Below are positions 10,887 through 63,098 of a stretch of DNA of 64,000 nt, piece after piece (the first letter of the stretch is position 1; every line of letters starts with the position of its first letter). The stretch comes from Lophium mytilinum (Eukaryota; Ascomycota; Dothideomycetes; Mytilinidiales; Mytilinidiaceae), in the NCBI GenBank assembly GCA_010093605.1, contig MU004182.1:901032-965031 (forward strand). Reading direction: 5' to 3'. The position numbers and the translations under genes are program-made. Below the pieces are notes generated by a model. The model did no database searches, was not told the DNA's origin, and saw nothing but the letters and a program-made list of their open reading frames with translations.

Positions 10887-12915
10887 TTAGATCCTGCCAC
10901 GCTCAAGGAACTTGTTGGGGATATCCACATATTTCGACCGGATGTACTCGCATAGATTCTTGCCCAAGCTGTCATAGCCACTAGTAGCATTGAAACCACG
11001 ATCTAGATGGTCGCGGAGAAGGAAGTGTACGGCGAGGATGTTGGGCATCTCAGATCGATCGATGTTCTTGCCCTTGTCATCCTTGCCCAGCAACTCACGA
11101 AGCTTCTCGACACTAAGCATCGTTCGGAACCACTCGTACTCATCGGCGTTGCGCACGAAGAGACCCAAGTTGGCGTTTGAGGACTTGTCACCAGATCGAC
11201 CCATCACGACGTAGCCTAGAGGAGCACGGGTAGTCGGGCCGAATTGTGATAGATCGACGGGGCTGCGGGTGTTGTATGTAGGTTGGTTGAAGTCGTATGT
11301 CTTCATCTGTGTGGGAGTAGGGATTTCGACGACGGTTCCATCAGGAAGATGAGCAGTTTCCTTGACGAACGACTGAGGCATCAAGCTGACCCAGTACTCG
11401 AAGAATGGCCGTCCAATGGCCTGGCGCATGTCTGGAGCCATGGTAGATCCTGGATAACCTTGGAGCAAGTTCTCAATACAGAAGCGGGCGAAAGAACCCC
11501 GATCGGAGTCGATCATAGCACCTGCGGATAAGAGATCGGGATCTTGGGTCTGGGCGAATATCCTCAAGTCGACGGTAGCCTCGTCCTGAGATTGTGGGTC
11601 TACTGGCACCGAACCAGCAATCTGGAACTTCAGGCAAGTAAATTTTTTTGCGTGGTCACCGAGAGCAGCCAAAGTTTGACGTTCGATCATCTTTGCCTTC
11701 TCCTCGATATTAAGACCGGTAAGGTAGAAGTGAAACTCGGCTTGGTAGCCACCCTTGGCGGTGATACCAACTAAGATACTTTGTTAGCGGTTTGTTGGGA
11801 ATTAGAAATAATAGGAACTGCGTACCTTTGGTGGTAGATGGGGCAGGCATGCCCTTAACACCAGAAACCTTGACGGCATTCTCTCCAACTTGTTCTAGCT
11901 TGACATCCTCGATATATGCGGTCACGTCTGAGTTGTAGTAGTAAGGACCCTGAATCTCGTACAGAAGCTGACTAGCAACGGTAGCGACATTGACAAGACC
12001 GTGCTTGCCCTTCTCCATTGTGATAACGGCCTCGCCGAGGTGGTCAAGAGCAGCAATCGGGTAGCCCATGTCGGTATCGTTGACGCCGAGGTCCTTGAAA
12101 CCGCTGTAGTAGCCACCTGTGGCATAGGTGCTGCACTCGATGATGTGTCCAACCATTAAAGCGCCAGCGAGCTCCTGGACGTCCTCTCGCTTCCAGCCGT
12201 GCCACCACATGGCAGCACCGACAATGGGCGACGCGTCAGCGACACGGCCGCAGACGACGATATCTGCTCCTCCCTCAAAGCAGGCTGCGATACCAGTACC
12301 TCCGAGGTAGCATTGGGCGCAGATCGGGTCGAATCCCCAGTCCTGAATGTTCTTGCCGGCGGGAAGGTTGGGGAAGTTCTCGCCTGTATCGAATTAGATC
12401 GTTGTTCGCCAGAAGCAACTTCTTACGGCTTACCCTTGTTGTACAACTCTAGCATGGCATCAGTGACATCGTCGCCATCCACATATCCAACCTTTAGATC
12501 GACACCGTGCTTGATAATCAACTTCTTGACTGCCTCTGCAAGACCTTGGACATCACTCGCACCGGCATTGACGCAAATCTTAGTCTTGTTCTTCGCTAAC
12601 CACGGGATGGCAGGGTCGAGCTCTTCCAAAAAGTATGGTTCGTAGGCAGCGCCAACTGCAGAAAGCTGCTTCTTGTTGAGTTTGTCCCGCTTGTCGGAGC
12701 CACGGAGGGTCATATTGCACTCGCTCATCCAATCTCCAGTGATGACATCGACTTGCGGCTCATTCTTGGCCATGTCATGAATGGCTCTTTTGCGGTCATA
12801 AACACCTGGACGGCAAGTCACATCAGTAAGTATGCTAGATAAAAGTAGGATATCTCTCACCTCCGGAGCATCCTGCCACATTGATGGGCCTCTTGTGGGT
12901 ACCGTTGGCAGCCAT
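10887..12915 (-). CDS. AtuA/DUF1446 family protein, copy 1 (four exons)
   Basis: Minus-strand exons 12915-12861, 12805-12434, 12383-11826 and 11770-10887 join in phase to 622 residues. The start MAANGTHKRPINVAGCSG leads into GGVYDRKRAIHDMAKNEPQVDVITGDWMSE, the N-terminal DUF1446 (acyclic terpene utilisation A) fold; typical family blocks follow: ICVNAGASD, VGYVDGDDV, GADIVVCGRVADASP, MWWHGW, GHIIECSTYATGGYYSG and LLYEIQGPYYYNSDV. The C-terminal AtuA-like domain contains GRSGDKSSNANLGLFVR (about residue 515). Length equals the usual fungal fused form; in many bacteria the two parts are separate genes. The family is linked genetically to citronellol/geraniol catabolism in Pseudomonas, but its reaction is not established to my knowledge. 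The protein ends ERGRI, without a peroxisomal signal. A second, intronless paralogue lies at 22591. Confidence 0.9.
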
Positions 12916-13649
12916 GTTGAACCAAGAAGACTGGGTATGTGTGAAAAGACTGAATTCAGGGGCAGGGTATCGTGACAGCTCTTAAAAATTCTAGTTCGAA
13001 AGTCGGAACGTAGTGTAGTTCAGGGCCGAGCTGGGCTTGAAAACAGCTTTATATCTCCTGAAAGATCTCAGCCCCCTTTGCCGACTTATCCATCTAAGAG
13101 GAATACGGCACATGACACCCCGCTATGCTTGAGATACCTTGCGGGGAGTATGCAGATAGAAGACGCCGGGGTTAGAAGTCCGGCAACAAAAGCTGGGCTT
13201 TCATGCAGGACCAGCTGGGGGGAACGTCTTCTGTACGGTAGACAATAGCCATACCAATCCAGGCCCAACACGAAGGAGTCCCACTGGGGTTGATTGGATG
13301 AGAATTTAGAGGTGGAGGGGTCGCGGGGTCGAGAAAATGTGGAGTGGCAACTGGTGGGACATGGCTACTGATTCATCCCGCTAATCACCATAATCCGAGA
13401 CGCTAATGAGTCATTAGGCCACAATTCTGAGTGTACCCCGCGACTTTCTGACTTGTTAGACGTGCCGAAGACACGCTGGGAATCGATGAAGGGCCAGGCA
13501 CACATTCAAGGGCCGCGGATATACGTCGGGCCAGTCATTATCCCGTGAGCGGCGAGAAGTCTTACCACAACAGAGTAGTTTAATTCAAACACATTGCGCT
13601 GAGAATGAGCTATAGTTCTGTACAGACTTCTATGATATACGCGTCGTTC
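12916..13649. other. Promoter region of AtuA copy 1
   Basis: 734 bp between AtuA copy 1 and the ABM gene, both on the minus strand. A TATAAAG on the minus strand (13053-13047) is about 135 bp before the AtuA start. It also contains the perfect palindrome CTAATGAGTCATTAG and a nearby TGATTCAT (13369-13376). No gene seen. Confidence 0.6.
13403..13417. promoter_or_regulatory. Palindromic bZIP-like site, cluster motif 1
   Basis: CTAATGAGTCATTAG, two perfect 7-bp half-sites around a central base, containing an AP-1-type TGAGTCA core. Identity with the site at 22290-22304 (opposite strand) continues six bases outward (GAGACG), with only the central base different. It lies about 490 bp upstream of AtuA copy 1. 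Confidence 0.7.
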
Positions 13650-14431
13650 TTATAGGTTAGAAGACGGTCTCTCTTTGTGAAGGTAGCCAGCTACAACTTT
13701 GAGGAATGCAAACTTTAGGTTTGTCCTGATATCGCCGTACTTTGCCTTATTGTTTGTCACAGCTGCACTTTTCGCGTGGACATCCCAAAGATACTTCTCG
13801 CTCTCGTACACTTCGACGGTCCTGATGGTGTTTTCCTGATCCTTGTCTTTCAGGATTGCGTACGCCAATGTGCCTGGCTCGTTGTTCTGGCTCTCGGACG
13901 TGACGGCCTTCCAGCCGTCGAATGCGCCTGCTCTTGTCCCATCCTTATAATCGAGTGTCGCAAACACAATATAGGGATTGCTCGCCTTATTGCTTTCCGG
14001 TCTGGTGAAGGAGAAGGCAGTTTCCGTTGTGTAGACTTTCGTGGGAGCCGCGAACAGCGAAGTTTCCGTAGTGAAGGTCTTTATCAACTCTTGAACCGCA
14101 TCCGAAGCCAGGTGAGCGTCGACTGTGGCCTGGTCGGCATATCTAGGATGGTCAGCATGTTGTTGCCGTATTATTGCTTTATTGAACTAACTCTTCAATA
14201 GCGTAGACAGACAAGTCGTCCTGGGGATCAGTCGAAACTGTTACGGCGTATCTGACGACTCCAGGCTCCTGAGCTTGCGAGTAGTGGCCGACTTTGGTGA
14301 GCGCATCGATGAGCTATACGCCGGCATGTTAGTCAATCATCTACCGACAAGAGCTTGCTAGAGAGACATGCCTTCCGCTTGGCCTCTTTTGAAGCCGCAG
14401 CGAGATGCCCGATCACAACAATGGAAGGCAT
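13650..14431 (-). CDS. Tandem ABM-fold (dimeric alpha-beta barrel) protein
   Basis: Minus-strand exons 14431-14372, 14313-14192 and 14142-13650 give 224 residues. The first intron needs a GC-AG pair (donor AAG|GCATGT, acceptor GTATAG) because no GT donor keeps the frame; the second is GT-AG. Residues 1-100 (MPSIVVIGHLAAASKEAK...LIDALTKVGHYSQAQEPG...YAVTVSTD...VYAIEEYADQATVDAHLAS) form an antibiotic-biosynthesis-monooxygenase-like half-barrel; residues 110-215 look like a second, more divergent copy (YIVFATLDYKDGTRAG...NEPGTLAYAILKDKD...VEVYESEKYLWDVHAKSAA). Such proteins are cofactor-free oxygenases, isomerases or decarboxylases, or binding proteins. It lies between AtuA copy 1 and the MFS pump, so a role in the same pathway is likely. 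The C-terminus PSSNL is at best a weak PTS1 variant. Confidence 0.8.
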
Positions 14432-14938
14432 TTTGACGATTGAGCAGATGTCGAGGAGGAAAACGCCATCAAGGTGTCCAGCGATTCATTTTGTCCCCTC
14501 CACTAGGCTGCACGTGCGGACAAGCTAGCGGGAACGAGTTGCTAAAGCACGGCATCATAGGACCGTCGGAATGTGTCCAGGTGGGAGTCGAATGGGGTTG
14601 TGGGGAACTGCCTAAGGTGGAGGTCAAGGAAGTAGGTTCCCGAAGGTCACGTGCCGCTACAGCTTAGCGCTCCTGCGCTGTGATCTTTGCTTTTACCGAG
14701 CTTCTCTCCCCTTTCTCATCACATCCTCGATATGTCCAACCGTACGGAGTTAAGCATTTGCTTCTAGCTTACTCCTCCCACGGCCAGTCTGTCAGCAGCA
14801 CGTGGAAACAGAACACATTCAAAAAAGCGCCATAAAATGTGTAAACGACCAAGTGGCTAGCTTGAACAACTTTCATAAGAATACGGCTAGGCGATGCTTT
14901 CAGATGCTCGGATCTCTTCGATAGCAGATTGGGAGAAC
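14432..14938. other. Promoter region of the ABM gene
   Basis: 507 bp upstream of the ABM gene and downstream of the MFS gene. A CACGTG E-box-like site lies near 14649, and GATTCATT (14483-14490) resembles part of the cluster motif but lacks its palindrome. No gene seen. Confidence 0.45.
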
Positions 14939-16984
14939 TTAAACGACATCTTTCTCCTGAACGACATCATGCTCCAGATTCCCTCCGATGGTCTTGCCAT
15001 GCATCCTCCTCTCGATCTTGCTGGTAAGATGCTTCTTAGGATCCTTAGTAAACAGAGACCCAATGATGGCGATACCTCCGAAGCCCAGGGACGCCAAGTA
15101 GACTGTCTTGAACGCAGCCGCATACGCGAACGGAACAGAACCTGCTACTGCGGTGATGACGGCCGTTGTTATGCCTGGAACTTCCGCCAACTTTCCTGTG
15201 CTCACCGCTGCTAGTACTGCGGGAACTTCTGATGAGGGCAGCCCAGCTGCGACGGCTGCACCACCTACCATGGAAGGTAGGGTCTCAGACAGCCTGTTTG
15301 TCAAGATGGTCGAATACACAGCGACAGCAATTGATCCACCAGCTGCTCGGATTGATGCCAGCATGCCAGACGAAAGGCCAATGTCTTCTGCGTGGCAGAA
15401 CAGTGGGGCCATAGACAAAGCAGCAAGCTCGATAAATCCGACGAAGAACGGTCCGAGAATGGTGAATGCAATACCCATACTCTTCGTACTCGGTGTCAGG
15501 GACGAGAGGGCCGATACGAACGAGACCATCCCACAGGCTGATATGATTGTCCAATATCGAGCATTGCCGAAGTAGCGGATCATGCCTCCAGCGCATACCT
15601 GGCCGAGTGCCGTAGCGGCACTGACAGTGCACTGAAAACAGAAGGTCAGTGTAGCTCATAGAGAGCCTGAATGCTGCTGAATTGCTTACAGATAGCCATC
15701 CGGCATAATTCACATCACTAGTGTACATTGTGGAAACCTGTTGTGGCCCTGTCGCATGGGTCAGCTTTGATTCATGCACTAGGAGTGCTATACTCACATA
15801 GAAGAACGGCTGAGTAGTAGAACATGCTAGCGACGGTTGCGCAAGTTACCAAGCTGATGAAACCTCGGTTTCTGAAGAGCTTCATTGGCATCAAAGGATA
15901 TTTTTGATTCCCGAAGGCCTCCCAGCAGCCGAACGAAATCAGTAGAACTACACCAATCACCATGGTACTAATCACGGCTGCAGATTTCCATGGGAACAGC
16001 CCGCCTCCCTATGTTTTCACGGTTAGAAATCCGAGATATTAAACGTACAAATCGCAATACTGGGTTAGAAGAAAGACTTACCCAGGAAAGACCCATCAAA
16101 AACAAAGTGAGGCCAGAGATCCACAAGAACATGCCGACAAAATCCAATTCCTTAGCTTGAGACATCTTTGATTTGTGCTCGTGCAACATCTCGAAAGTTG
16201 GTGGATGGTAGAAGAAGAATAGGAGGACGACAGCCAAACCGGTAGTAATTAGGTTAAGGTAGTATGTCCATCTCCACCCTAGGGAAGGGTCCTGGATGAA
16301 TGCTCTAGCGATTTTTGGTCCAAAGGTGGCAATCGGTGCTGATGTCGCGAAGATAAAGGACATGACAGCAGGGCGGTACTTATTTGGTACCAATTCGCCG
16401 ACTGCGACGCCAAAGCTGAGCTGAATGCATTCTCCGAGACCATAGACCACGCTCGCGAGAATCAAAGCTGTGATGTTCTGAGCTGTGCAGCCTACGATAA
16501 CACCGATGAAGCAAACGACATTGCCACCGATGAAAAACCAGCGACGTCCTGCTTTACGTTAATTACTGCCGAGCGAGAGCTGAGGAGGCAGAACTGACCA
16601 AACAAATCACTCAATCGACCAGAGACCAAGAACATGCAGCTTTCAGCCAGAGTTCTCCCAATATTGACCCATGCAATGTTCTTGTCTGGCCCGATGTCTT
16701 CATTGATGTAGGTCAAGACATTTGTAGGCAGGATTAGGAAGATGTAGGCCGACATTTGGGCAAGACAGAGTCCCTTTACGCTGTTAGAACGGGATCTGCA
16801 AAGAGAGAGTGAGAAGAGTTCTTACAGCCATCGTTCCTAGGAATGGTAGACTGTAAAAGTAATTATTGGGTATAGTATCGCCACGCGCCACCTCATTGAT
16901 GGAAAGAGTCTCCTCTTGCGAGGAGGTCTCGTCTTCAACAATTTCGTTCTTTTCTGCCATGTTCTTATGGGATTGCGGATCCAT
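14939..16984 (-). CDS. MFS transporter, TRI12 / trichothecene-efflux-pump type
   Basis: Six minus-strand exons: 16984-16826, 16773-16599, 16548-16082, 16008-15798, 15748-15690 and 15631-14939; 587 residues. The first intron uses an AAG acceptor after a CTAAC branch sequence, giving PFLGTMA|GLCLAQMSAYIF. Family marks are the loop 2-3 motif GRLSDLFG|RRWFFIGGN (split by intron 2), FINEDIGPD-like YINEDIGPDKNIAWV, GECIQLSFGVAVGELVPNKYRP and a long C-terminal cytoplasmic tail. The pattern of about 14 hydrophobic helices with TRI12-like motifs points to a fungal DHA-type proton antiporter. In this cluster it could import the pathway's substrate or export a toxic intermediate. The start at 16984 (MDPQSHKN) was chosen; 16960 (MAEKNE) is possible. 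Its promoter holds a copy of the cluster motif. Confidence 0.85.
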
Positions 16985-17436
16985 GTGGACCGCGTACGAG
17001 ACGGGGGAGGTACTGCTCGACGTTGACGCGTTGGAGAGGAAAGGAAAGCCCAAGAGCTCAATTAGGGAAAGATGTGCGAGTATCAAGGGACGACAGAGAG
17101 CTGTGTGGAAGTGATGTCTATCACAATGCCCAGAGAACTAGTCTCATGACCAGGAAGGGAGCTCCATACATATAGCAAACGCCTCGTCCTTAGTCCCTCG
17201 CCCTCATTTGGCGTAATCTCAGGGCCTACGGGCATTCTAAACACCCTGAGCGCCTATTCGGTCCCCGCATCCTCCGGGGCCTCCGCACGTTCTCTAAGCG
17301 ATGATATGGGGTTTGGGGATAATAGTGGGGACCGGGGAAACCCTGCAGGTCAATATGGTCACCGACGAGCCCGGAAAACGATTTGCAGATCGTAGCGTGC
17401 CTCGAAAATGCCCTTTCGACTCATGTCTTGCAGGCA

Positions 17437-17447
17437 CTAATGATTCA
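17437..17447 (+). promoter_or_regulatory. bZIP-like half-palindrome, cluster motif 2
   Basis: CTAATGATTCA, one full half-site plus core of the palindrome seen at 13403 and 22290, preceded by CA as at 22288. It lies about 450 bp upstream of the MFS transporter. Confidence 0.55.
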
Positions 17448-17458
17448 GGTGAAGCAAT

Positions 17459-17465
17459 TGACTCA
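17459..17465 (+). promoter_or_regulatory. AP-1-type TGACTCA site
   Basis: TGACTCA, a textbook bZIP/AP-1-like heptamer, 11 bp after motif 2 in the MFS promoter. Alone it could be a general Gcn4/CPC1-type site; paired with motif 2 it suggests bZIP control. Confidence 0.45.
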
Positions 17466-17732
17466 GGTAAAGCGCTAGAGGAGGCGACGACGAGTCAATG
17501 GAATCCCGAATTAGCGCCACCGCAACATCACTCGCCGACGACTCAGCAGAACGCGTCGCAAAGAGCTCTACCATTCGTGCCACTTCTTCCGATGCACAAC
17601 CTCAGGTCTCATATCACATGGTTATGGATTCTTCTCGTTCTTCAATAAGATAGGCTAATCTAACAGTCATCTTAGACTTTCAGACATCTACAGTAGCTAG
17701 TCTTCCTGCGAGGTGAACCCAAAAGACAGTCA

Positions 17733-18612
17733 TCAGCAGATCCATCCACCATCAACTGAATGTATCGCCCCTGTTATGAAAGTGGACTCGTCGCCTAGAA
17801 GGAAGGCTACCAAACTTGCTACCTCTGATGGCTTCCCAGGCCTATTCAGTGCAGTATGGGCATAATTATCAAAAGTGACATTTGGGTTCCCGGCTCCCGC
17901 GATCTCTCGTGCCTTGGCGACCATTGGAGTCTCTATCGTTCCACTAGATCTCCTTTCAGCTTTCACAATCTTAGTTCGAGCGTGGTCGTATCACTTACGG
18001 AGCAATGGCATTTACCCTGATGCCTTTAGACCCCATGTCTTTTGCGGCACTTCGAGTAAGACCGACCACGCCATGTTTACTAGCTGAATACGAAGCATTC
18101 TTCGCTCGGCCTGATATGCCCGCCACTGAAGCAGCATTGACGATGGAGCCACCATTTTCCATGTTCTGGAGCTGCGCTCTTTGGCAGTACCTGTCGAGTC
18201 GCCAAGTTAAGACCCATATTATTAGGGGAAAATGTGGCACTAACATTAGACCGGTAAGGTTGACCCCGATTACAAAATCCCAATCAGAATCTTCAATCTC
18301 CGCAGCCGTTTTTATGCCAATAGCGTTCCCAGTCACTCCAGCCAGATTGGCAGCACCATTCAATTTTCCAAACTTCGAGACCGTTGCGTCGATCCACGCG
18401 TCTACCTGCTTCCGGTCCCGGACGTCCATTTTGAACGTCATGACCTCTCCACCTGCAGAGCGGATCTCCTTCGCAGCTTCGTCTAATGGTCCTTCCTGCA
18501 CATCCCCGATGGATACCTTGGCGCCCCTTGAAGCTAGTAGTTTTGCTGTAACGAGGCCGATGCCAGATGCGCCACCAGATACAACAATCACCTTGTCCTT
18601 TAGAGAAGACAT
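17733..18612 (-). CDS. Classical short-chain dehydrogenase/reductase
   Basis: Minus-strand exons 18612-18245, 18190-17999 and 17943-17733 give 256 residues. The cofactor motif GGASGIG (about 13-19) and the acidic residue ending the next strand (SIGDVQ, Asp at the strand end) suggest NAD(H) preference. The NNAG equivalent is NLAG. The catalytic serine lies in IVNAASVAG and Tyr/Lys in SYSASKHG. The C-terminal FITGAIHSVDGGW is the usual FabG-like ending. Both splice junctions restore conserved SDR text: NLTGLM|YCQRAQL and AIAP|GTIETPM. By family it oxidises or reduces a secondary alcohol or ketone; in this cluster a 3-hydroxyacyl-CoA or hydroxylated terpenoid/aromatic intermediate is plausible. 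It shares a 371-bp divergent promoter with CoA ligase 1. The C-terminus GGWIC is not a PTS1. Confidence 0.9.
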
Positions 18613-18983
18613 TGTATTGGCTTGGATAGTGGCGGAACTGCCTACGATTTGAATTGAATAAAGCGGCCCCTGCAGCTTGCGCCGTGCGGAGTACGTCAAG
18701 GACCGAGCACTACCACCAGTAGCAGATTGTGGAGAAAGGAAAGTATTGCCGAGTTCAAAATACTACATCGTCAAGTACTCGCAGTTGCACTTGTCAGCTT
18801 TATGGAGCAATGTTCGGCAACTGGTTGAAATCCCCGCGTCCAAAGCTGGATAATGTCTCCCGATCACGTGCTTTAGCACTTACACAGCTCCACTTACTCG
18901 TAATTTTAGTATCCGCATCCCTTTTAGAGGATCTTTGCGCCTGTATCAAAGTGACGGTATACAGTACGTCTCCTTTAGTCGCG
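18613..18983. other. Bidirectional promoter between the SDR and CoA ligase 1
   Basis: 371 bp between divergent start codons. A CACGTG lies near 18866. I did not see the cluster's palindromic bZIP-like motif here, so these two genes may be driven by another site. Confidence 0.5.
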
Positions 18984-21010
18984 ATGCCAGCTTCAAAGAT
19001 ATACCGTTCGAACTATCCCCGTCCTCATGTTCCGACAAATCTCAGTATATCTCAATATCTTCAGCTATACAACCCAGATGATGCAGCCGCCGACAAAACT
19101 ATCTTCCAAGACGATTGGACGGGAAAGAGTCTAACATATTCTGGGCTGAGAACTCAAAGTGCTAAAGGCGCCTTCGGTCTAAGACAGTTACTCAATCTGG
19201 AGGAGGGAGGAGTTGGTGTGTTGTAATCTTCCCTACATTCGTGCCGTTCACACCGTTTAATTTCTCCCAGTGCTCATATGCGCTCCGAACTCAGTAAGTG
19301 AGCCCTCGGCACGGCATTTCGAGCACTCCGGACTGATGAAGCAATTAGGTGGACGTCGTACTATTGATTCATGCAGTCTTGTGGTGTGGTGGGACTGCAG
19401 TGTAAGCTCGACAGGCAACTAGAACGCCCCAGATTCTGATGCTCCGCTTTTAGACTTGTCAATCCGCTTAGCACCTCGTACGAGGTAGCCCACTGCCTCG
19501 GGATATCTGAGCCTAAGATCCTAGTCGCCGACTCGAGCACATGGCCAACCTTGTTCACTGCAAGTCAGACAGTCCCGGCGGCTGGGACATTCGCCACGTT
19601 GTCTCTAGATGCAGGACCGTGTCCCTTCCCGTCGGTATGTCCTTCCTGTCTCACCTTCCCCGCCCTCGAACTAAGCTGATAGCTTCCAGGCTATTCGTCT
19701 ACCCCAGATCTTCCAGACTAACAATGCCTTACCACCTCTGGACTTGTCAGAGCGGGACAGCCGCGATTATACGGCATGCGTCTGCTTTAGCTCTGGAACC
19801 AGTGGCAAGGCGAAGGGAGTGGAGCTGTCCCACTACAATCTCGTTGCGTCCATGGCAGGGATCCGATCGTCGGATACCACTCTCTGGAACGAGACTATCA
19901 GACAAGTTTTCTTTGCCCCTCTATGCCACATATATGGTGCGTGACGAAGTGGTCTGAAGAAGCTAAACTGATCCTAATCATGGCATAGGACTCGTGAGTG
20001 CCGCTCTGATGGGAGCATCGATTGGCTACTATACCATGTTGATGAAGAAGTACACACTAGGAAGACTTCTCGAGCTCTCTGCGAAAGTTAATGCCAATAC
20101 CCTACGCATCCTTCCGACCATTGCGGTTGCGATCACTAAGGATCATGGGTTCGACCTCGCACAGTTACAGAGTATCAAGTTGATCATGTGCGCTGGAGCA
20201 ACATTGCCCCCGAAGATCATCGAATTCTTCAATCAACGGTTTCCGGGCGCTCCTATCTTCCAAGGCTATGGAATGACAGAAACGAACATTACCACTCTAA
20301 GACCTGAGCAGGCTCACATGATAGGCAGCGTCGGAAAGCTTTTTGCTAACCTCGAGGCTAGGTTGGTCGACGATGATATGAATGACGTGGAGTTTGGCGA
20401 GGAAGGCGAGATGCTCCTCCGTGGGCCGACAGTCTTTCGCAGGTATATGAAAAACCAGGCAGCCACAGATGAGACCTTCCATGAGGGCTGGATGAAGACC
20501 GGTGACATTCTGCGGTCCGATGAAAATGGGTTCTTCTATCTGACCGAACGCAAGAAGGTACGTCCACCGGAAAGGGAGAGAGGTCTTTCGCTAATGCCGT
20601 GTCTAATAGGAATTGATCAAGTACAAAGGGTATGCAAGCTCGTTGTAGTTGAGAGAACATCTAACTGATTCGATTCTAGTAACCAAGTTGCACCGGCGGA
20701 ACTCGAAGCGTACCTTGGAGGCCACCCTTACGTTAGAGAGTGTGCTGTATGTGCACTTTGGGATGAAGACCAGGGCACTGAAGTTCCCATCGCATACGTC
20801 GTTTTGACTGATGAAGGAAGAGCGGCGAGCGAGAACATTGCTTCCACGCTGGCAGAGATCCAGAAGCACGTCGACAGCAAAGTCTCGCCCTACAAGAAGC
20901 TCAGAGGAGGTGTCGTAGCACTCGACGAGATACCAAAAACGGGCACGGGCAAGGTGCTCCGACGTCTGCTGCCCGCAAGACTAGCAAAAGAACGATCATC
21001 AAAGCTTTAG
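18984..21010 (+). CDS. 4CL-like acyl/aryl-CoA ligase 1 with peroxisomal SKL
   Basis: Eight exons, all in phase: 18984-19215, 19271-19293, 19349-19401, 19454-19634, 19690-19936, 19989-20557, 20610-20629 and 20680-21010; 551 residues. Two exons are only 23 and 20 bp. ANL-superfamily motifs are complete: P-loop CFSSGTSGKAKGVELSH, the HIYG turn, FQGYGMTETN, GWMKTGDI, the hinge ELIKYKG|NQVAPAELE and the C-terminal catalytic lysine in PKTGTGKVLRR. Architecture and length match 4-coumarate-CoA-ligase-like fungal enzymes, which make CoA thioesters from carboxylic acids with ATP; the substrate is not predictable. The protein ends RSSKL, a canonical PTS1, so peroxisomal import is expected. It is divergently transcribed from the SDR and converges on enoyl-CoA hydratase 1, 32 bp away. 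Confidence 0.9.
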
Positions 21011-21042
21011 AAATATACAATTACAAGTTCCACATCACACCC

Positions 21043-21879
21043 CTATAACCTGCTAGCCTTCCACACTGGCGATCGCTTCTCACTAAACGCCTTCAACCCT
21101 TCCAGTATATTTTCACCCTTCTGCAACTCCGCAAACTCCCTATCCATCGTGATCCCTACCGCCTCCTCCACCGCCGCCGTCTCCCACCCCTGCCTGATTC
21201 CAGCCCGCGTACAGATAATAGCATCAGGACTGTTCACCGCAATCGCCGTCGCGTACTTGACCGCCTCCGCTACCAGCTCACTCTTCGGCACAACCTTATT
21301 CACAAGTCCCCACGCCAGCGCCTCCTTCGCCGTGACATTCCGCCCCGTCAGCGCAAACTCGCTCGCCCGCTGCAGCCCAATCGTGCGAATAAGCCGTGGT
21401 AGCGCGCCCCCGATCGGCGAGATCCCGCGCTTGACCTCCGGCAGGCCGAAGTACGCCTCCTCGGCCGCGACCACGAGATCGCAGTTGACGATGAACTCAG
21501 TCCCGCCGCCCATCGCGAGGCCGTTGACGGCCGCAATCACGGGCTTCTTGCCGAGCCGTCGCGAGAGGGGAGTGAAGGCTGGCGCGTTGCCCATGCGGCT
21601 GTTGGGGTCGGCGTCGGCGTCCATGGAGGAGTTCCATTCTTTGAGGTCGGCGCCGGCGCTGAAGGCGCGCCCGGTTCCTGTGATGATGGCGACGGAGAGG
21701 TTGGGCTCGGCGTCGAGCCATTTCCAGACGGCGTCCATTTCCCATTGCGCGGTCGTGTTCATGCAGTTGAGGTCTTTGGGGCGGTTCATGGTGATGAGGA
21801 GGACGCGGGGCGCGGGATAGGAGAGGAGGAGGAAGGTGGGTGTTGGTGGTGGAGGGGTGGTGGTTGGTAGAGAAGCCAT
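21043..21879 (-). CDS. Enoyl-CoA hydratase/isomerase family protein 1 with SRL C-terminus
   Basis: Single exon, 278 residues. Crotonase-fold marks: oxyanion-hole segment GRAFSAGADLKEW and AAVNGLAMGGGTEFIVNCDLV. Both glutamates used by true hydratases seem present, one in GGGTEF and one in FGLPEVKRG, which supports hydration of a 2-enoyl-CoA rather than mere CoA-ester binding. The C-terminus WKASRL is a good PTS1 (SRL). A Thr/Pro-rich leader (TTTPPPPTPT) precedes the first strand. It shares a 711-bp divergent promoter with AtuA copy 2 that contains the full palindromic motif. Confidence 0.9.
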   Translation of the reverse strand: MASLPTTTPPPPTPTFLLLSYPAPRVLLITMNRPKDLNCMNTTAQWEMDAVWKWLDAEPNLSVAIITGTGRAFSAGADLKEWNSSMDADADPNSRMGNAPAFTPLSRRLGKKPVIAAVNGLAMGGGTEFIVNCDLVVAAEEAYFGLPEVKRGISPIGGALPRLIRTIGLQRASEFALTGRNVTAKEALAWGLVNKVVPKSELVAEAVKYATAIAVNSPDAIICTRAGIRQGWETAAVEEAVGITMDREFAELQKGENILEGLKAFSEKRSPVWKASRL

Positions 21880-22590
21880 TGTGGGATGCTGGAGGGAGAG
21901 GGTTCACGCGTAGTGAGAGGGTTATTCTGATGGTAAGAAAGGAAAATGTTCCAACGCTGAACCAATGAACGCTGGTACAATCTAACGCTGTGACTTCGTT
22001 GAATAGCAAGCAATGCGAAGGAATGAAGAAAACCAGGTGTGGTGTTGAGAGTGGAAAAGTACCGCGAGTCATGAGAATTATTGCAAAGAAACGACAATCA
22101 GTCTCACGATTCGTGTGCAGACCTCGGGAGACCCTGCTAATGCACTGTAGCAGGCGCCTCTACCGTGCCGTCTCGACGGGTGTAAGACTCCGTAGGTGGC
22201 GGCAGGCGGTGAGATAAAGATGGAGGACGAGTCGTGGAGTACCCCACGGGGAGCATTAGTCGCAGGTGGAGACCCTTTAACCCCGTTCACTAATGATTCA
22301 TTAGCGTCTCTCCCAATTGCGGGGAAGAAGCCGCAAACCACCCACGCCGCGATCTGCCAACGCGAAACTGCATCAAGTCATGCTCTTGTTCCTGCTTGGC
22401 GGCGTCAAACTGACTCTCGCTGTCCCCTCATTCATGCCAGGTGGAGGGGAGCACGGGTAGAACGGCGACGGCGACGGCGTTACTTCAAGGCAATGCTCCG
22501 CAGGCACTGCGTAGGTAGCTTGTTCTATCAAAATATATCGAAGTCATACCACAATCACCTTTCTTATCGTCCCTTCTCGAAGTATCCGAG
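21880..22590. other. Bidirectional promoter between enoyl-CoA hydratase 1 and AtuA copy 2
   Basis: 711 bp between divergent start codons, holding the full palindromic cluster motif about 290 bp before the AtuA copy 2 start and about 410 bp before the hydratase start. No gene seen inside. Confidence 0.6.
22290..22304. promoter_or_regulatory. Palindromic bZIP-like site, cluster motif 3
   Basis: CTAATGATTCATTAG, the same 15-bp palindrome as at 13403-13417 with a different central base; six further bases (CGTCTC, 22305-22310) match the flank of the first site on the opposite strand. It serves the divergent pair enoyl-CoA hydratase 1 / AtuA copy 2. Confidence 0.7.
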
Positions 22591-24450
22591 ATGAGCTCCC
22601 AAAACACCACAACACGTCGGCCCATCCGCATAGGCAATGCCTCCGGCGCAATCGGAGACGGCATTGACCAGGTCTACCGCCTCGCTCGCGACGGCAACGT
22701 GGACGCAATTACGGCCGACTACCTCGCAGAATTCAACATTGCCTGGAAAGCGATTGAGTTGACTACGGAGCCAGACCTGGGGTACGAGCCCAACTTTCTC
22801 GACCAGCTAGCATGGCAAGATGGCGCCGCTGCGAAGCTGTTGCGGAGGAAGAGAATCAAGGTTGCGCATGACGGTGGAGCGTTGAACCCCAAAGGGCTGG
22901 CCGAAAAGGTTCATGCCTACTTCTTGAGCTTAGGCATTGAAGACATGAGGATTGCATGGGTCAGTGGTGATGATGTGACAGCGTTGGTTAGGGGGGAGAA
23001 CTTTGGCGCACTACAACACTTGGATTTGCGAGGGGTAAAACTGGATGTCAAGACTGAAAAGGTGTTAGCCGCCAATGTATACACTGGACAAGCAGGTGTG
23101 GTGCGGGCCCTCGAAGCTGGGGCTGACATTGTCATCTGTGGGAGGTGTTGCGATGCCTCTCCAGTCATGGGTCTTGCGTATTGGTGGCACAACTGGAAAT
23201 CCACGGACTACGATGCCATGGCAGGAAGTCTTATCGCTGGACACCTCATCGAATGCGGAGCGTATGTGACGGGAGGAAACTACTGCGGGTTCAAAGAGAT
23301 TCCTCAACGCTACTCCTTCGGGTACCCCATCGCCGAGATAGCTGCAAATGGATCCGTGGTTATTACCATGCCAGAAAACAGCAACGGAGCTGTGACCGTG
23401 GACACCACCAAGGCACAGCTGTTGTACGAGATTCAGGGGCCCTTCTATCTCAACGCCGACGTTATAGCTCGCATAGATGGTGCTGTTTTGGAACAAGTGG
23501 GAAAGAATAGGGTCAGACTGTCTGGAATCAAAGGATCTGCACCACCTCCGACATCAAAACTAGCAATCAGCCTCTTTGGCGGTTGGCAAGCCGAGCTATC
23601 AGCATACAGTGCAGGGCTGGATACTGTAGAAAAATTCGACATGATGAAAGATCAAGTGCGACGATACATCAACCCGGACGAGTTCACGACTTTCAGCATG
23701 GAGACATACGGAGTAGCGCCTCAGGATCCGAAGTCCCAAAAGGAATGCACAGTGCAGCTTCGGATGTTTGCCCAGGCACCGGAGAAGGAAGCGATAACAG
23801 AGTTCAAAAGAGCAATCCTTTACAATGGTATCCAGGGGTATTGCGGGTTACATCTGCATATGGACTGGAGGACGATGGAGCCGCGGATGTATCTCAAATA
23901 CTTTCCAACTCTTGTCCCGCAAGATGGTACTCCGCTGGCAGTCCATTTCGTAGGCGAGCCGGGCAACGTCTTAGATGTACCCGCAAAGCGGATCGAGGAT
24001 TGTGCGGAAGAGGTTCCAGTGCAGCCAGACTACGAGGGAAGGCATCAAGCCGTGAACCTAGCCACTTTCGGAGAGACAGTGCGTCGTCCTTTCGGCGATC
24101 TAGTCTTTGGGCGTTCGGGTGACAAGGGCGGAAACGCTAATGTTGGTATCTGGGTAAGAGACGCCAAAGCCTGGCCATGGCTTCAAAGTTTCTTGACCTC
24201 AAAGAAGGTGAAAGAGCTGCTAGGCGATGATTGGAGTGAAAAGTACTCGGTCGAGCGATGCGAATTTGAGCATCTAATGGCTGTCCATTTCGTGGTCCGC
24301 GGAATCCTCCAAGATGGCGTCTCTAGCAGCAGTATCTTGGATGGGTTTGGCAAGAGTTTTGGGGAGTTCATTAGGGCGCGATATGTAGATATCCCGAAAG
24401 GTCTTCTTGAAGTTGAGCAAAGGAGGAGACAACCTCAAGCACAACTTTGA
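22591..24450 (+). CDS. AtuA/DUF1446 family protein, copy 2 (intronless)
   Basis: Single exon, 619 residues. N-terminal text RPIRIGNASGAIGDGID, VDAITADYLAEFN, VAHDGGALNPKGLAEKV, VSGDDVT, GADIVICGRCCDASP, YWWHNW, GHLIECGAYVTGGNYCGF and LLYEIQGPFYLNADV defines the DUF1446/AtuA domain (about 12-460). The C-terminal domain carries GRSGDKGGNANVGIWVR (about 506-522) and ends FGEFIRARYVDIPKGLLE. The match to copy 1 runs the whole length but is clearly diverged, and the intron content differs completely (none versus three), so this is an old paralogue rather than a recent tandem duplicate. The end QAQL is not a standard PTS1. A 15-bp bZIP-like palindrome lies upstream. The reaction of this family is unknown to me. 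Confidence 0.92.
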   Translation: MSSQNTTTRRPIRIGNASGAIGDGIDQVYRLARDGNVDAITADYLAEFNIAWKAIELTTEPDLGYEPNFLDQLAWQDGAAAKLLRRKRIKVAHDGGALNPKGLAEKVHAYFLSLGIEDMRIAWVSGDDVTALVRGENFGALQHLDLRGVKLDVKTEKVLAANVYTGQAGVVRALEAGADIVICGRCCDASPVMGLAYWWHNWKSTDYDAMAGSLIAGHLIECGAYVTGGNYCGFKEIPQRYSFGYPIAEIAANGSVVITMPENSNGAVTVDTTKAQLLYEIQGPFYLNADVIARIDGAVLEQVGKNRVRLSGIKGSAPPPTSKLAISLFGGWQAELSAYSAGLDTVEKFDMMKDQVRRYINPDEFTTFSMETYGVAPQDPKSQKECTVQLRMFAQAPEKEAITEFKRAILYNGIQGYCGLHLHMDWRTMEPRMYLKYFPTLVPQDGTPLAVHFVGEPGNVLDVPAKRIEDCAEEVPVQPDYEGRHQAVNLATFGETVRRPFGDLVFGRSGDKGGNANVGIWVRDAKAWPWLQSFLTSKKVKELLGDDWSEKYSVERCEFEHLMAVHFVVRGILQDGVSSSSILDGFGKSFGEFIRARYVDIPKGLLEVEQRRRQPQAQL

Positions 24451-24832
24451 GGTCCACCCCAGACATGGACGAAATGAGAAGTTCTACTTAACACCATTGA
24501 AGAGAACGCAACGCATAGAAGTAGTGATGAAGTTGAGAGGTTGATCGCGAGTCTGGTCTTGATTGGTCTGTCGATGACGACAATAGAACAAATGCTCTAG
24601 TGCCGCCGAGTGAAGGTCCGGAAATGCTACACCGACCCCACATCCCCTCCCATCTTCCACGCCCACCCATGCCGCGACCGTCGACATTACCTAGGCAATC
24701 CGAAAGCGGCATGGGCTCTCTTGACGTCTTCCCCGGGCTGAGGCCGGTTGAATTCATAGCTACCTTCTTGACCGACTCTTTACTTACGTCGTTGCGTACA
24801 TTTGCTACCCAAAACATTCTCGAAAAGCACCA
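24451..24832. other. Intergenic between AtuA copy 2 and the MaoC gene
   Basis: 382 bp between two plus-strand genes. It contains TTGAATTCATAG near 24749, which resembles the cluster motif but has an extra base in the core. No gene seen. Confidence 0.5.
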
Positions 24833-25968
24833 ATGACCTCCTCAAGTGACAAGGTCGTCAAGAACGCCGCCGGTCGGTATGACAACGTTGATTTCAAGAA
24901 GGCTATAGGGTACAAGTACGCTCCCATTAAGGCCGCCTATCTTCGACGCGATGTCCTCCTTTTCGTACGAAACTTCTCCCCAAACCCTCACTATACTAGT
25001 ACTGATTGTCAAGCAGGCCAACGCAATTGGAGTAACCAAAGACGAGCCACACTTTCTCTACGAACTACATCCCAAATTCGCAGCCTTTCCTACCTTCCCT
25101 ATAAATCTAGCATTCAAGCAGGATGACCAAGACGTGTTCGACTTCATCCAGCGAACCGTGTCAGCCGACGTACCCGGCGTCCCCCCATTCGACCCCAAAA
25201 GATCCGTAGATGGCGAGCGTGGCATCGAGATCATTCGGCCGATACCCACGTCCTCAAAGGGCCTTGACTTGGAGATCAATGGCTCGATCGTTGGAGTGTA
25301 CGACAAGGGAGGCAACATGATACTGGAAGCCGAGCATCTGCTGCGGGACGCGAAGACAGACACCGTCTATGCGAAATTGACCAACGTAGCGTTCGGGATC
25401 GGACAGGGCGGATATGGGGGCCCTCGAGGACCCGCTACTAAATCTTACCCGCCTCCAGAGCGTGCACCAGATGCAGTGCATGTCTTCCAGACGTCGCCGG
25501 AGCAGGCGCTCTTGTATCGGCTGTGTGGGGATTACAACCCGATACACGCTGATGATGAGTTTGCGAAGGCTGGTGGGTTCAAGGGCGCTTTCATGCAGGG
25601 CTTGGGTACTTGGAATATCGCGGCCCATGGTATCCTGAGGGAAGCTGGCGGGAGTGATCCGGCACGGTTTCGTAGCTTCAAGGCGAGGTTTGCGAATATC
25701 GTGTACCCTGGTATGTTCCGCTGTAACTCTTGTTGTCTCGAAGTGCTAACTTTGTCTAGGTGATGCTCTGGAGACGCGTATGTGGAAAGTAGGGACAAAC
25801 GATGGAGTAGATGAGTTCATCTTCCAAACAATAGTCCAATCAGACGGACGTATTGCCCTGTAAGTCTAGATCATAGAGTAAGACGTTCTACACGAAGCTA
25901 ATGGCGAACCCAGATCCAATGGTTTTGCTACCATTAACCAGGCGAGTCCGCTGAAAAGTAGTCTTTAG
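24833..25968 (+). CDS. MaoC-like / hydratase-2 (double hot-dog) enoyl-CoA hydratase
   Basis: Four exons: 24833-24964, 25017-25710, 25760-25859 and 25914-25968; 326 residues. The first splice restores YLRRDVLLF|ANAIGVTKDEPHFLYELHP, text typical of the N-terminal half of peroxisomal hydratase 2 proteins. The second hot dog has the active-site signature YRLCGDYNPIHAD (about 210-222) with the catalytic Asp and His, then GGFKGAFMQGL. These enzymes hydrate trans-2-enoyl-CoA to (3R)-hydroxyacyl-CoA, opposite in stereochemistry to the two crotonase-type hydratases in the cluster. The last residues LKSSL form a possible weak PTS1 (SSL). It is a stand-alone protein here, whereas in fungal beta-oxidation the domain usually sits at the end of Fox2. 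It converges on enoyl-CoA hydratase 2. Confidence 0.88.
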
Positions 25969-26061
25969 CCTTAAATCTAATGCATATCTTGTCTCCATAC
26001 TCAGAAATGAAAAATATATAATCTTGAAAAGGTCTTTCAAATCATCTAGGATATACAACAT

Positions 26062-27041
26062 CTACAAATACGAAGGCAACCACCTCGGATCCCTCTTCTC
26101 CCTATACGCTGCCAACCCCTCCGCAGCATTCTTACTCCTCAACATAGCCTCACTATATATCTCCTGCCCTCGCATCGTCGCGCGACTAACGCCTGTTTCC
26201 CACGCTTCTCGTGCCGCCAGCCTCGAGATGATAACGCTATCAGGGCTCTTCTCCGCAATCTCAACCGCATACGCAATGGCCCTCTCAAGCAACTTCTCCT
26301 GCGGTACAATCTCCTTCACCAATCCCCAACTCACCGCCTCCTCCACCGACATCCGTCTCCCAGTCAGGATCAGATCCATAGTCCTGTGATTTCCAAAGAG
26401 AAGCATCGCCCGCGGCAGAGCACCAGCAAGCGCAGAGACACCTCGTAGGACCTCTGGGAGGGCGAACGTAGCGTTTGGCGACGCGAATATCACGTCTGCG
26501 TTTAGGATTGCCTCGAAGCCGCCTCCTGTTATCGGTATCAGCATCTACCATGCAGTAATCGGATTCCTTTCGAGATATGAGGCCTACCGTGTGCGTGTCC
26601 ATTACAAGCCACCACAATCGGCTTCTTGCCCGTCCGATTGCTCATCCCCGCGAATCCGCCGTGCGGGTAGTCGTGCGCAACGTCGTTGGTTTTGATGAGG
26701 TCGAGGCGCTGCTTGAGGTCCATGCCTGCGCAGAAGGCCTTTTTGCCAGCCTATCTCCCCAACCTATATAAGCTTTTCCTCCCATACGATCTGATGTGGA
26801 TGTATATAGCACTTACGCCCGTGAACACCGCACATCTAAGCTCCGGCTCTGCATCGTACCACTTCCACAACGCACCCAGCTCGATGGTCGCTTCGACAGG
26901 GAGGCAGTTCATGTACTGCGCACGGTTTATGGTGACTTGGAGGATGTGTTTCGCCGGGAAGGAGATGAGCGAGTGCTCCACGCGGGGGTAAGGGTTTTCG
27001 AGCCACGCGGGGACGGGGTCTTTGGTGCGTGGGGTCGTCAT
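26062..27041 (-). CDS. Enoyl-CoA hydratase/isomerase family protein 2
   Basis: Minus-strand exons 27041-26817, 26750-26588 and 26525-26062 give 283 residues. Splices restore FTG|AGKKAFCAGMDLKQ (oxyanion hole) and ACNGHAHG|GGFEAILNADV. Glu is kept in both catalytic positions (GGFEA and FALPEVLRG), as in paralogue 1. The C-terminus RDPRWLPSYL aligns with the SRL end of paralogue 1, but SYL is not a recognised PTS1, so its location may differ or depend on a partner. It shares a 638-bp divergent promoter with CoA ligase 2. The start MTTPRTKDPVPAWL at 27041 is the first ATG that leaves a normal N-terminus; an in-frame extension upstream looks non-coding. Confidence 0.88.
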
Positions 27042-27261
27042 CGCGGAAGGTAGATGTATCAAATGGAAGCAATTGAACAAGCTGGGTGTATGCTCTCCAA
27101 TTGACAAGATACGAAGAAATGCGAAAACCAACAAGAAGAACAGAAATCCACGATCGTCCAACGCGCCAAAGCCTCGAAGCCTAACTTCTGTTCCGCTCCA
27201 CGGGTCATCGACGCATGCATCCTGCACCGCTGAATCGCTAAATCATACCTCGGCGCTTGCT

Positions 27262-27270
27262 TGAATCATT
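27262..27270 (-). promoter_or_regulatory. bZIP-like core, cluster motif 4
   Basis: TGAATCATT on the plus strand, i.e. AATGATTCA on the minus strand, equal to the core of motifs 2 and 3. It lies about 220 bp upstream of enoyl-CoA hydratase 2. Confidence 0.4.
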
Positions 27271-27340
27271 GCCCTTAGTGAGGCACTGCGGCGGTGTACC
27301 TGGGGTATCTTTTTCCCACAGTGACGGCGGCTCTCGGAAC

Positions 27341-27353
27341 TGATTCATTAGTG
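27341..27353 (-). promoter_or_regulatory. bZIP-like half-palindrome, cluster motif 5
   Basis: TGATTCATTAGTG on the plus strand reads CACTAATGAATCA on the minus strand, matching the CACTAATGA(T/A)TCA found at 17435-17447 and 22288-22300. It lies between the divergent genes for enoyl-CoA hydratase 2 and CoA ligase 2. Confidence 0.55.
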
Positions 27354-27679
27354 GGATGCAGGGTGCGTGCAGGGGTAGCTAGGATGCGCGCGGGGCGGCT
27401 GGGGTAAGCTATTGTGGGGCACGTTGGCAAGCGGATATCAGAACGCGGAGGTGGAGAGGTGGGGAAGAAGCGGTGCGAGTAAGGTGTTTACACAAATGTA
27501 CCTATGTACGACAGTACCGTGGGGTAGGCTGCGGAAAGGACGGCTTCGAGGTGGACGAAGCTCTTCGTCACCTCGTTGGAGCTGTTTTTCTGGTTGGAAA
27601 GCTCGTTGCTGCGTTGTGATCGTGAAGTTTGAGCATCGCGATCTTTTCAATTCGTCATCAAACACTCAATCCAGCCGAA

Positions 27680-29518
27680 ATGCGCGTCTACAAAGCCCCC
27701 CAAACCATTGACATCCCTCAAGACCTTAATCTCACCGAGCTCCTCCACACAAGCAACGACCCACCTCTCCCTCCTTCCCACCTCATCACGAAAGATAGCC
27801 TTACCAACCGGAGCATTACCATCGGAGAGCTTCGCCAGCGTGCAGGAAGAATAGCAAATGGACTGAACTCGACTCTCAAACCCCACGATCAGAGCAGGTG
27901 GGCTGTGATTCTGCCAAACAGCGTCGAGTATCTGGAGGTCTTCCATGCGGTGCTCTGGGTCGGCGGAGTGGCGTGCCCTATAAATCATGCTATCAAGGCG
28001 GAAGAGATTGGCCATGCGTTTTCGGTCACGAGGCCAGATTTCGTTATCGTATACGGGCCAGCGCTATCGAAGGTGCTCGAAGCAGTGGAGGTTGCCAGGA
28101 GGGAGTTGGCTACTGAGGGAGTGACATGGGATACACCTAAGATTGTGACTGTGATTGAGAGTGCCGATGGATTTAAGCATATTCCTGACGACTTTCTTGC
28201 CCCGGAGAAATTAGCCATTCCGCATTTCAGCGATACGAAAAGGTGAGCTGTGGTGTTGAGAGATAGTCAGACTGTGACTAAGCTAATCTGGTGGTCAGCC
28301 GTCTCGCAACAATACACCTCTCATCTGGAACTACGGGCAAACCAAAAGGCGTAGAGTTAACACAGTAAGTAGATCAACGTAGTAGTTGGTGCTGATGCTG
28401 ACATGATTTCAAGCTTTAATTTCGTATCCAACGTGTATCAACTTCGTGCTCACGACCCGGCACAGTTCCACCGTGGCAGCCGTGTTGTTGCCTTTACTCC
28501 ATTCGCGCACATCGGAAACACAACAATACCCTTATTTCTCGGCCCGTTCATGGGCATGATGCATCATGGTGAGTTATACGTAAACTCATGTCTAGTTCCT
28601 TGCTAATTGTGGCGCGAAATAGCCATGCCTGCGTACGATCTTGAAACATTCGGACAGCTTGTAGATTCAAATAAAGCCACGATATTCCAGGGTGTTCCCT
28701 CCGTTGTTCTTTCGTTTGCGAATACGGACATTGCCGATAGGTTCGATTTTTCAAAGGCGGAAGTAATAAACGTCGGTGGACCGCCTTTCAAACGGGACAT
28801 GCTTGAAAGGCTGTTGAATAAGGCGCCATGGAGGTTGAACCAGGTTTACGGGATGACGGAAGGCGCTGGGTATGTTGCGTACCAGAGATCTACCGACAAT
28901 CAACTGGAAGGGGTCGTAGGGCCTCTAGTGCCAAACATAGAAGTAGCGTTGCGTATCAACGAGGGAAAAGATGATGCGCCTGAAAACGGCCCAGGCGAAC
29001 TATGGTTGAGGGGCCCCAATATTACGAGGGGATATGCTTTCAACACCGAGGCAAATCAATCGGCGTTCCCCCAGGAGGGATGGTATAATACAGGAGATGT
29101 TTGTACGGTTTCAAGAGATGGGGTGATCGCGGTGGTCGGGCGGACGAAAGAGCTGATCAAGTACAAGGGCTTCCAAGTGAGCCCTGCCGAGCTGGAGTCG
29201 TATCTCAACTCCCATTCCCATGTTGCTGAAGCAGGTGTGGGGCCTGTGTTTGACGAGAGCCAGCTCACGGAGCTACCGACAGCGTACGTAATCCTGAAGG
29301 ATCATTTAGTCCTTGAGAAGGATAAAAGAACGGCTTTGAAGGAGATTCATGCAACGGTGGATGACCGCGTGAGTGGATATAAAAAACTCAGAGGCGGTGT
29401 TTGGGAGGTGAAACTGTTGCCCAAGAACCCAACGGGCAAGATCCTGAGGAAGCAACTCCAAGACCACAAGTCGGGTCTGAGTTCTCTAGATAGAGGGGAT
29501 AGAAGATCAAAATTGTAA
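27680..29518 (+). CDS. 4CL-like acyl/aryl-CoA ligase 2 with peroxisomal SKL
   Basis: Four exons, 27680-28242, 28299-28364, 28414-28568 and 28623-29518, join in phase to 559 residues. ANL motifs: P-loop HLSSGTTGKPKGVELTH (the third exon begins inside the final His codon), PFAHIGN, QVYGMTEGAGY, GELWLRGPN, GWYNTGDV, ELIKYKGFQVSPAELE and the catalytic lysine PKNPTGKILRK. The C-terminus DRRSKL is a canonical PTS1. It differs from ligase 1 in intron pattern (three versus seven) and through most of the sequence, so the two probably prefer different acids or act at different points. The start at 27680 (MRVYKAPQTIDIP) is preferred to 27629 because homologues I know begin close to this text. It is the last gene whose promoter carries the cluster motif. 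Confidence 0.9.
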
Positions 29519-62984: not shown

Positions 62985-63098
62985 GCGCCTACCGGGGCGG
63001 TAGTAGTATTCTTAATATCTAGGCCTAGATAACTATACTTAGCGCCTACCGGGGCGGTAGTAGTATTCTTAATATCTAGGCCTAGATAACTATACTTA
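62985..63098. repeat. Two perfect 57-bp tandem copies inside the AT-rich block
   Basis: The unit starting GCGCCTACCGGGGCGGTAG is repeated exactly at 63042, and a third copy begins (GCGCC) at 63099. Each unit contains two dyads: CTACCG-GGG-CGGTAG and the palindrome TATCTAGGCCTAGATA. Just upstream, 62951-62967 is another hairpin (AAGCCCC-TCC-GGGGCTT). Confidence 0.85.

Follow-up and report, generated by a model that had tools for sequence, protein, structure and literature searches.

A 64,000-nucleotide stretch of the genome of the ascomycete Lophium mytilinum (hereafter the window; C2:901032-965031, contig C2 being one of 24 contigs in the 43.2-Mb genome) contains a ten-gene cluster built around two proteins of the AtuA (DUF1446) family, AtuA-1 and AtuA-2. 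The remaining genes encode two AMP-forming CoA ligases resembling 4-coumarate-CoA ligase (4CL-A and 4CL-B), two crotonases, a stand-alone hydratase 2, a short-chain dehydrogenase/reductase (SDR), a tandem ABM-fold protein, and a TRI12-like transporter of the major facilitator superfamily (MFS). That this is a real and conserved cluster is close to certain. Our preferred explanation, to which we assign a probability of about one half, is that it is a catabolic cluster of filamentous ascomycetes in which AtuA acts as a lyase of the type of the two-subunit citramalate lyase CmlA/CmlB.

The conservation of the cluster emerges from the positions of orthologues in other fungi. Homology searches with AtuA-2, AtuA-1, and 4CL-B took the best 120 of 4095 to 4399 proteins each, and linkage was scored by the equal size of the longest contigs carrying the orthologues together with gene numbers, which gives a lower bound and is informative only for species in which linkage exists; on large contigs a size match means co-location on one scaffold only. 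Orthologues of AtuA-2 and 4CL-B have at least 35 contigs in common besides the window's own, seven of these being shorter than 11 kb. For AtuA-1 and 4CL-B there are at least seven common contigs, and for AtuA-1 and AtuA-2 at least eight, the match on one of these, 5.1 Mb long, being due to a distant AtuA-1-like protein. In a control with shifted sizes, the two pairs involving 4CL-B together gave 0.16 coincidences. Of the 119 other listed 4CL-B orthologues, 39 have a listed AtuA-1 or AtuA-2 on the same contig, and the remaining 80 have neither. Of the 50 close AtuA-1 orthologues (at least 63% identity), 11 show linkage, compared with one of the 69 more distant.

Gene numbers are adjacent in Thyridium curvatum, where 4CL-B and AtuA-2 are neighbors (E0L32_003416 and 003417), and in Fusarium decemcellulare (FDECE_8730/8731), and close in Neonectria ditissima (AK830_g8366/g8368), and Verticillium albo-atrum (ACHAQA_006221/006223). 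Fused gene models indicate direct neighborhood of the joined genes: AtuA-2 is joined to a hydratase 2 orthologue in P0066 and P0117 (66-70% identity) and to a 4CL-A orthologue in P0100 (57% identity), and 4CL-B is joined to an ABM orthologue in P0260 (41% identity). Linkage of the SDR through the fused model P0251 was dropped because its SDR part did not match the cluster SDR at E 1e-4. The pairwise comparison covered AtuA-1, AtuA-2, 4CL-A, 4CL-B, hydratase 2, and the ABM protein. The preliminary description of this DNA had named homologues scattered without synteny as the observation that should count against a cluster; linkage was found for these six members, with Fusarium zealandicum as the one counter-example. 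Pairwise linkage of orthologues elsewhere therefore argues for a conserved cluster and not a local accident.

Not every AtuA gene has such neighbors. There are about ten AtuA loci in the L. mytilinum genome (contigs C2, C4, C5, C7, C8, C10, and C11), and eight 20-kb stretches at the other AtuA matches contain no predicted gene resembling the non-AtuA members (blastp, E 1e-6); a weak match on C4 yielded no AtuA model. In Neoarthrinium moseri a gene model (P0141, JX266_010190) joins AtuA-1 to a TauD-type dioxygenase (PF02668), a domain that is absent among the window proteins scanned. From this fusion, some relatives may carry an additional oxidation step.

The presence of three enzyme classes in pairs, as previously described, is borne out by Pfam, which places AtuA, AMP-binding, and ECH_1 twice each. 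AtuA-1 and AtuA-2 are 37% identical, and identity within the remaining two pairs is 31% and 42%. In a tree of 54 AtuA proteins, the 12 AtuA-2 sequences and the 18 bacterial sequences each group in a clade of their own (support 100/100 each), and the window AtuA-1 falls into a separate fungal clade of 21 sequences (100/100) together with paralogues of its own and other genomes; the deeper branching among the fungi has weaker support (93/83 and 92/75). Recent tandem duplication as the origin of the pairs is ruled out by the 31-42% identity and the separate AtuA clades, and the sequences indicate that the enzyme pairs are old.

The proposed chemistry derives from protein structure. In a comparison made with the predicted structure of AtuA-2 (predicted local distance difference test score, pLDDT, 91.8), CmlA (chain A of PDB entry 9evf) is matched along its length by the N-terminal AtuA domain, and CmlB (chain B) by the C-terminal one. 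AtuA contains both subunit folds of CmlA/CmlB (PDB 9erq and 9evf), in one chain as opposed to two. The aligned stretch contains 23 residues that are invariant in AtuA, of which 12 are the same in CmlA and 11 differ. The predicted model makes it almost certain that the AtuA fold is CmlAB-like, and AtuA probably performs lyase chemistry as well. The depositors of 9erq and 9evf have already connected AtuA with citramalate lyase, and no paper on CmlAB was found among the matches listed from the open-access literature, subscription journals and preprints lying outside the search; new here is that this connection is carried over to fungi and to the present cluster, and that it takes in the fused C-terminal domain. 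Fungal AtuA is distinguished from CmlA/CmlB by the frequent occurrence of a peroxisomal targeting signal type 1 (PTS1) in its orthologues and by having CoA ligases and hydratases as neighbors. By name the same domain family is found in enterobacteria and Dictyoglomus, where a DUF1446 gene lies downstream of methylaspartate ammonia-lyase (PMC4682846). That setting, which we compared by description only, consists of glutamate-fermentation genes and not of CoA ligases and crotonases; that source reports that the citramalate-cleaving enzyme was not identified and that no conditions expressing the glutamate genes were found (PMC4682846). Going by the entry names of 9erq and 9evf, the DUF1446 gene may by analogy encode the missing citramalate-cleaving enzyme.

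The cluster had been called peroxisomal in type, and this clearly holds for only part of the set. 4CL-A and 4CL-B both end in SKL and crotonase-1 in SRL, which are canonical PTS1 signals; crotonase-2, the ABM protein, and hydratase 2 end in SYL, SNL, and SSL, respectively. AtuA-1 ends in GRI and has no PTS1, nor do the SDR and the TRI12-like transporter have a PTS1 end. A strict PTS1 occurs in 95 of 120 listed 4CL-B orthologues, in 40 of 120 listed AtuA-2 orthologues, and in none of the 51 listed orthologues close to AtuA-1; the background frequency is 0.3%. The C-terminal ends of the members and their orthologues suggest that the majority of the pathway is probably peroxisomal, with AtuA-1, the SDR, and the transporter probably outside.

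SidH is a mevalonyl-CoA hydratase that acts at a methyl-branched carbon. It is the top PDB match (7oeq) of both crotonase-1 (291.7 bits; next match 154.9) and crotonase-2 (217.7 bits; next match 135.5), a likeness that is suggestive only but hints at hydration at a branched carbon. Both ligases retain the AMP-binding and C-terminal lysine motifs, and the motifs of the hydratases, SDR, and ligases are taken in their usual functional meanings. For 4CL-B, plant 4-coumarate-CoA ligases head the PDB matches (194 bits), closely followed by luciferase-type enzymes (189 bits).

We propose the following route. The TRI12-type MFS protein would take up an acid, and the two PTS1-bearing ligases would convert it to CoA thioesters. 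The two SidH-type crotonases and hydratase 2 would add water to a C=C bond whose beta carbon is probably substituted. The AtuA enzymes, as single-chain relatives of the ADP-binding two-subunit CmlA/CmlB, would then cleave the 3-hydroxy acid or its thioester in an ATP-driven reaction, releasing a two-carbon (acetyl) unit and yielding a carbonyl compound on which the SDR would act. Neither the acyl-CoA dehydrogenase or oxidase of beta-oxidation nor its thiolase, none of which the cluster encodes, would be needed in such a route. AtuA-2 would act in the peroxisome and AtuA-1 probably in the cytosol. A catabolic direction is likely; a beta-branched or C5-dicarboxylate-like substrate, rather than a plain aromatic one, is suggested only tentatively. 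The complete proposal, an undescribed and mostly peroxisomal route for beta-branched acids in which ATP-driven retro-aldol cleavage replaces dehydrogenase and thiolase, with AtuA-2 as a peroxisomal and AtuA-1 as a cytosolic single-chain CmlAB fusion, is speculative and somewhat doubtful as a whole.

Several observations weigh against AtuA as a lyase in such a pathway. The structural match of the C-terminal domain to chain B is modest (E 5e-3), no sequence match between the two was found up to E 1, AtuA-2 is about 14% identical to CmlA, and the invariant AtuA residue H218 is a lysine in CmlA. A common fold does not imply a common reaction. In Pseudomonas the lyase step is reportedly carried out by LiuE. 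The literature consulted is tentative in regarding AtuA as the lyase there. In the glutamate-fermentation setting no conditions for expression of the genes could be found, so the missing activity tells little about DUF1446 (PMC4682846). The window AtuA-2 ends in AQL, which is not a strict PTS1, and in F. zealandicum AtuA-2 (gene 1610) lies on a different contig from AtuA-1 (9455) and 4CL-B (9453). The genome encodes two more SidH-like genes, 51% and 56-58% identical to crotonase-1; SidH-type crotonases form a larger fungal subfamily, and the likeness to SidH consequently tells little about the substrate. The cluster contains no regulator, oxygenase, or carboxylase that would point to a substrate, and a motif scan of the cluster genes found no common promoter motif above shuffles.

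The first alternative is biosynthesis or remodeling, in which the ligases and crotonases would tailor a precursor from elsewhere into a metabolite exported by the TRI12-like pump, comparable to SidI and SidH. ABM-fold proteins are frequent in secondary metabolism, the TRI12 family is described as one of efflux pumps, and both crotonases are SidH-like. The peroxisomal enzymes SidI and SidH of fusarinine/triacetylfusarinine C (TAFC) siderophore biosynthesis are likewise a 4CL-like ligase and a SidH-type crotonase (PMC3709128). However, polyketide synthase (PKS), nonribosomal peptide synthetase (NRPS), terpene synthase, and acyltransferase domains are absent among the window proteins scanned, several models outside the cluster having been scanned in part, and the linkage of the core over many named genera fits a nutrient pathway better. 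Unlike the fusarinine/TAFC pathway, the cluster has no SidF-type acyltransferase, and SidF-like genes (PF13523) are found only on contigs C12 and C5, which rules out membership of that siderophore pathway; to our knowledge, AtuA is not part of it. Biosynthesis is an unlikely alternative. The preference for degradation over classical secondary metabolism expressed in the preliminary description stands insofar as no scaffold-building enzyme was found, as does its statement that PKS, NRPS, and terpene synthase are missing, but the direction itself is likely only.

Side-chain degradation of aromatic, cinnamate- or phenylpropanoid-like acids by a ligase and a hydratase followed by retro-aldol or beta-oxidative removal of acetyl-CoA is also unlikely. 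It would agree with the plant 4-coumarate-CoA ligases heading the matches of 4CL-B; these are just the nearest solved structures, at modest scores of 194 versus 189 bits for luciferase-type enzymes. The hydroxycinnamate pathway of Aspergillus niger (HcsA, FoxA, and KatA) also employs a PTS1-bearing 4CL-like ligase and hydratases, and hcsA adjoins katA; AtuA is not named in the accessible part of the source (PMC8140964). FoxA- and KatA-type enzymes are absent among the cluster proteins, which include, in contrast to the A. niger pathway, neither a thiolase nor a multifunctional hydratase/dehydrogenase. Cinnamates would furthermore need neither a CmlAB-type lyase nor two types of hydratase.

A fungal Atu pathway for citronellate- or geranate-like acids is improbable. 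The cluster has the AtuA family, an acyl-CoA synthetase, and a crotonase in common with the Atu pathway of Pseudomonas and Thauera, and bacterial AtuA relatives often have a crotonase (41/80) and a biotin carboxylase (48/80) in their flanks. It differs in possessing two AtuA proteins, two ligases, and an additional hotdog hydratase, and in that the defining geranyl-CoA carboxylase is encoded neither in the cluster nor on its contig; carboxyltransferase matches are on C13 and C10, with none on C2. Formation of the Atu intermediate requires carboxylation, and the absence of the carboxylase from the cluster argues against membership of the terpene pathway. As for AtuE (isohexenylglutaconyl-CoA hydratase), the two crotonases present have SidH as their nearest solved relative. 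A neighborhood without joint function, due to chance or shared chromosomal history, would accommodate the missing promoter motif and the differing gene order (4CL-B lies beside AtuA-2 in T. curvatum and apart from it in L. mytilinum), but it is very improbable, since at least 35 shared AtuA-2/4CL-B contigs against 0.16 in the control, retained despite altered order, are the pattern expected from selection for linkage, and since the eight other AtuA stretches of the genome lack these neighbors.

The company of AtuA with crotonases is old. In bacteria, the flanks examined of 80 AtuA relatives (loci L029-L108) encode a biotin carboxylase in 48 cases and a carboxyltransferase in 44. A crotonase occurs in 41 and a 4CL-like ligase in 22, and such proximity to crotonases in bacteria points to an old association. 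A crotonase gene lies directly upstream on the same strand in 25 of the 80, of which 73 have at least 900 bases upstream. At E 1e-12, tblastn found crotonase in 39 of the 80 loci, 4CL in 22, and SDR in nine; hydratase 2, ABM, TRI12, and a second AtuA were found in none, at a threshold that distant hotdog and ABM proteins could escape. This result rules out the bacterial loci as copies of the fungal cluster, which differs from them in having no carboxylase and a second AtuA. High G+C misled the choice of frame by longest open reading frame in two of four bacterial loci, and only two L103 proteins served as queries.

The positions of the cluster genes are given in the table. Our own intron-aware gene finder, applied to the whole window and the gap regions with junctions corrected by eye, together with Pfam recovered all ten genes of the classes previously named, between 10887 and 29518, the same outer coordinates as in the preliminary description, and without internal stops on translation. 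Pfam assigned AtuA and AtuA_ferredoxin to two proteins, AMP-binding and ECH_1 to two each, TRI12, adh_short, and MFE-2_hydrat-2_N with MaoC to one each, and ABM in two stretches. Adjacent genes are 32-772 bases apart, and the gene finder predicted nothing else between them, in agreement with the earlier claim that no unrelated gene intervenes; one low-scoring antisense model within the hydratase 2 gene was disregarded. For the ABM gene an alternative last exon scored higher, and the exon chosen matches P0260. AtuA-2, AtuA-1, and 4CL-B are identical over their full lengths to database proteins P0001 (619 aa), P0121 (622 aa), and P0241 (559 aa), the latter two named Lophium mytilinum. By Pfam, no thiolase, acyl-CoA dehydrogenase, acyl-CoA oxidase, or carboxylase is present among the cluster proteins; genes elsewhere in the genome could contribute such enzymes. 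NCBIfam (E 1e-10; nine proteins, ABM and TRI12 excluded) gave no model for AtuA-1, AtuA-2, hydratase 2, or the hydrolase described below, and for the other five proteins the best 25 rows each were all below the curated cut-offs.

Table. Genes of the L. mytilinum AtuA cluster and a candidate additional member, in window coordinates.
Gene	Position	Strand	Features
alpha/beta hydrolase (candidate extra member)	7484..8313	+	256 aa, 2 exons, intact; PF12697 82.9 bits
AtuA-1, AtuA + ferredoxin-like domain	10887..12915	-	622 aa, 4 exons; PF07287 537 bits, PF23544
tandem ABM-fold protein	13650..14431	-	209 aa, ends SNL; PF03992 in two stretches
TRI12-like MFS transporter	14939..16960	-	579 aa, 6 exons; PF06609 264 bits
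classical SDR	17733..18612	-	256 aa, 3 exons; YSASK and GGASGIG motifs
4CL-A, AMP-forming CoA ligase	18984..21010	+	551 aa, 8 exons; PF00501, PF13193
crotonase-1	21043..21879	-	278 aa, single exon; PF00378; GGGTE and LPE catalytic Glu motifs
AtuA-2, AtuA + ferredoxin-like domain	22591..24450	+	619 aa, single exon; PF07287 522 bits, PF23544
stand-alone hydratase 2 (hotdog, MaoC)	24833..25968	+	326 aa, 4 exons; PF22622 and PF01575; GDYNPIH
crotonase-2	26062..27041	-	283 aa, 3 exons; PF00378; GGGFE and LPE catalytic Glu motifs
4CL-B, AMP-forming CoA ligase	27680..29518	+	559 aa, 4 exons

The left flank consists of a DUF4185 gene, an intact alpha/beta hydrolase gene, and a Swc3 gene, and the right flank of a Fringe-like glycosyltransferase and a CLP1-type gene. 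The alpha/beta hydrolase, which lies beyond the coordinates previously described and is parted from the cluster by the DUF4185 gene, may belong to the cluster and could supply the acid via ester cleavage. The intervening DUF4185 protein (9095-10093, minus strand) has a signal-peptide-like start. At the far end of the window, from about 61600 to 64000, the DNA is AT-rich (GC 28% in 62001-64000) with diverged repeats and resembles a repeat region degraded by repeat-induced point mutation.

The preliminary description knew of no fungal pathway with this gene set, and we likewise found no description of a fungal AtuA cluster among the matches listed from the open-access literature, subscription journals and preprints lying outside the search. 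The black yeast Cladophialophora immunda is reported to be enriched in families for acyclic terpene utilization, AMP-binding, and TRI12, which fits with the cluster, and no such cluster is named in the accessible part of that source (PMC5595782). DUF1446/AtuA proteins are common in filamentous fungi, with about ten loci in L. mytilinum and many genera among the listed matches. Their annotation stems from a bacterial terpene pathway that the cluster alone cannot run because the key carboxylase is absent from it. The link to an ADP-binding citramalate lyase offers a testable reaction for AtuA, and the conserved cluster offers its setting. If the proposal is true, this would be the first reaction for the AtuA family in eukaryotes and a second fungal way of shortening branched acids, with a bearing on plant-biomass breakdown and the engineering of C-C cleavage.

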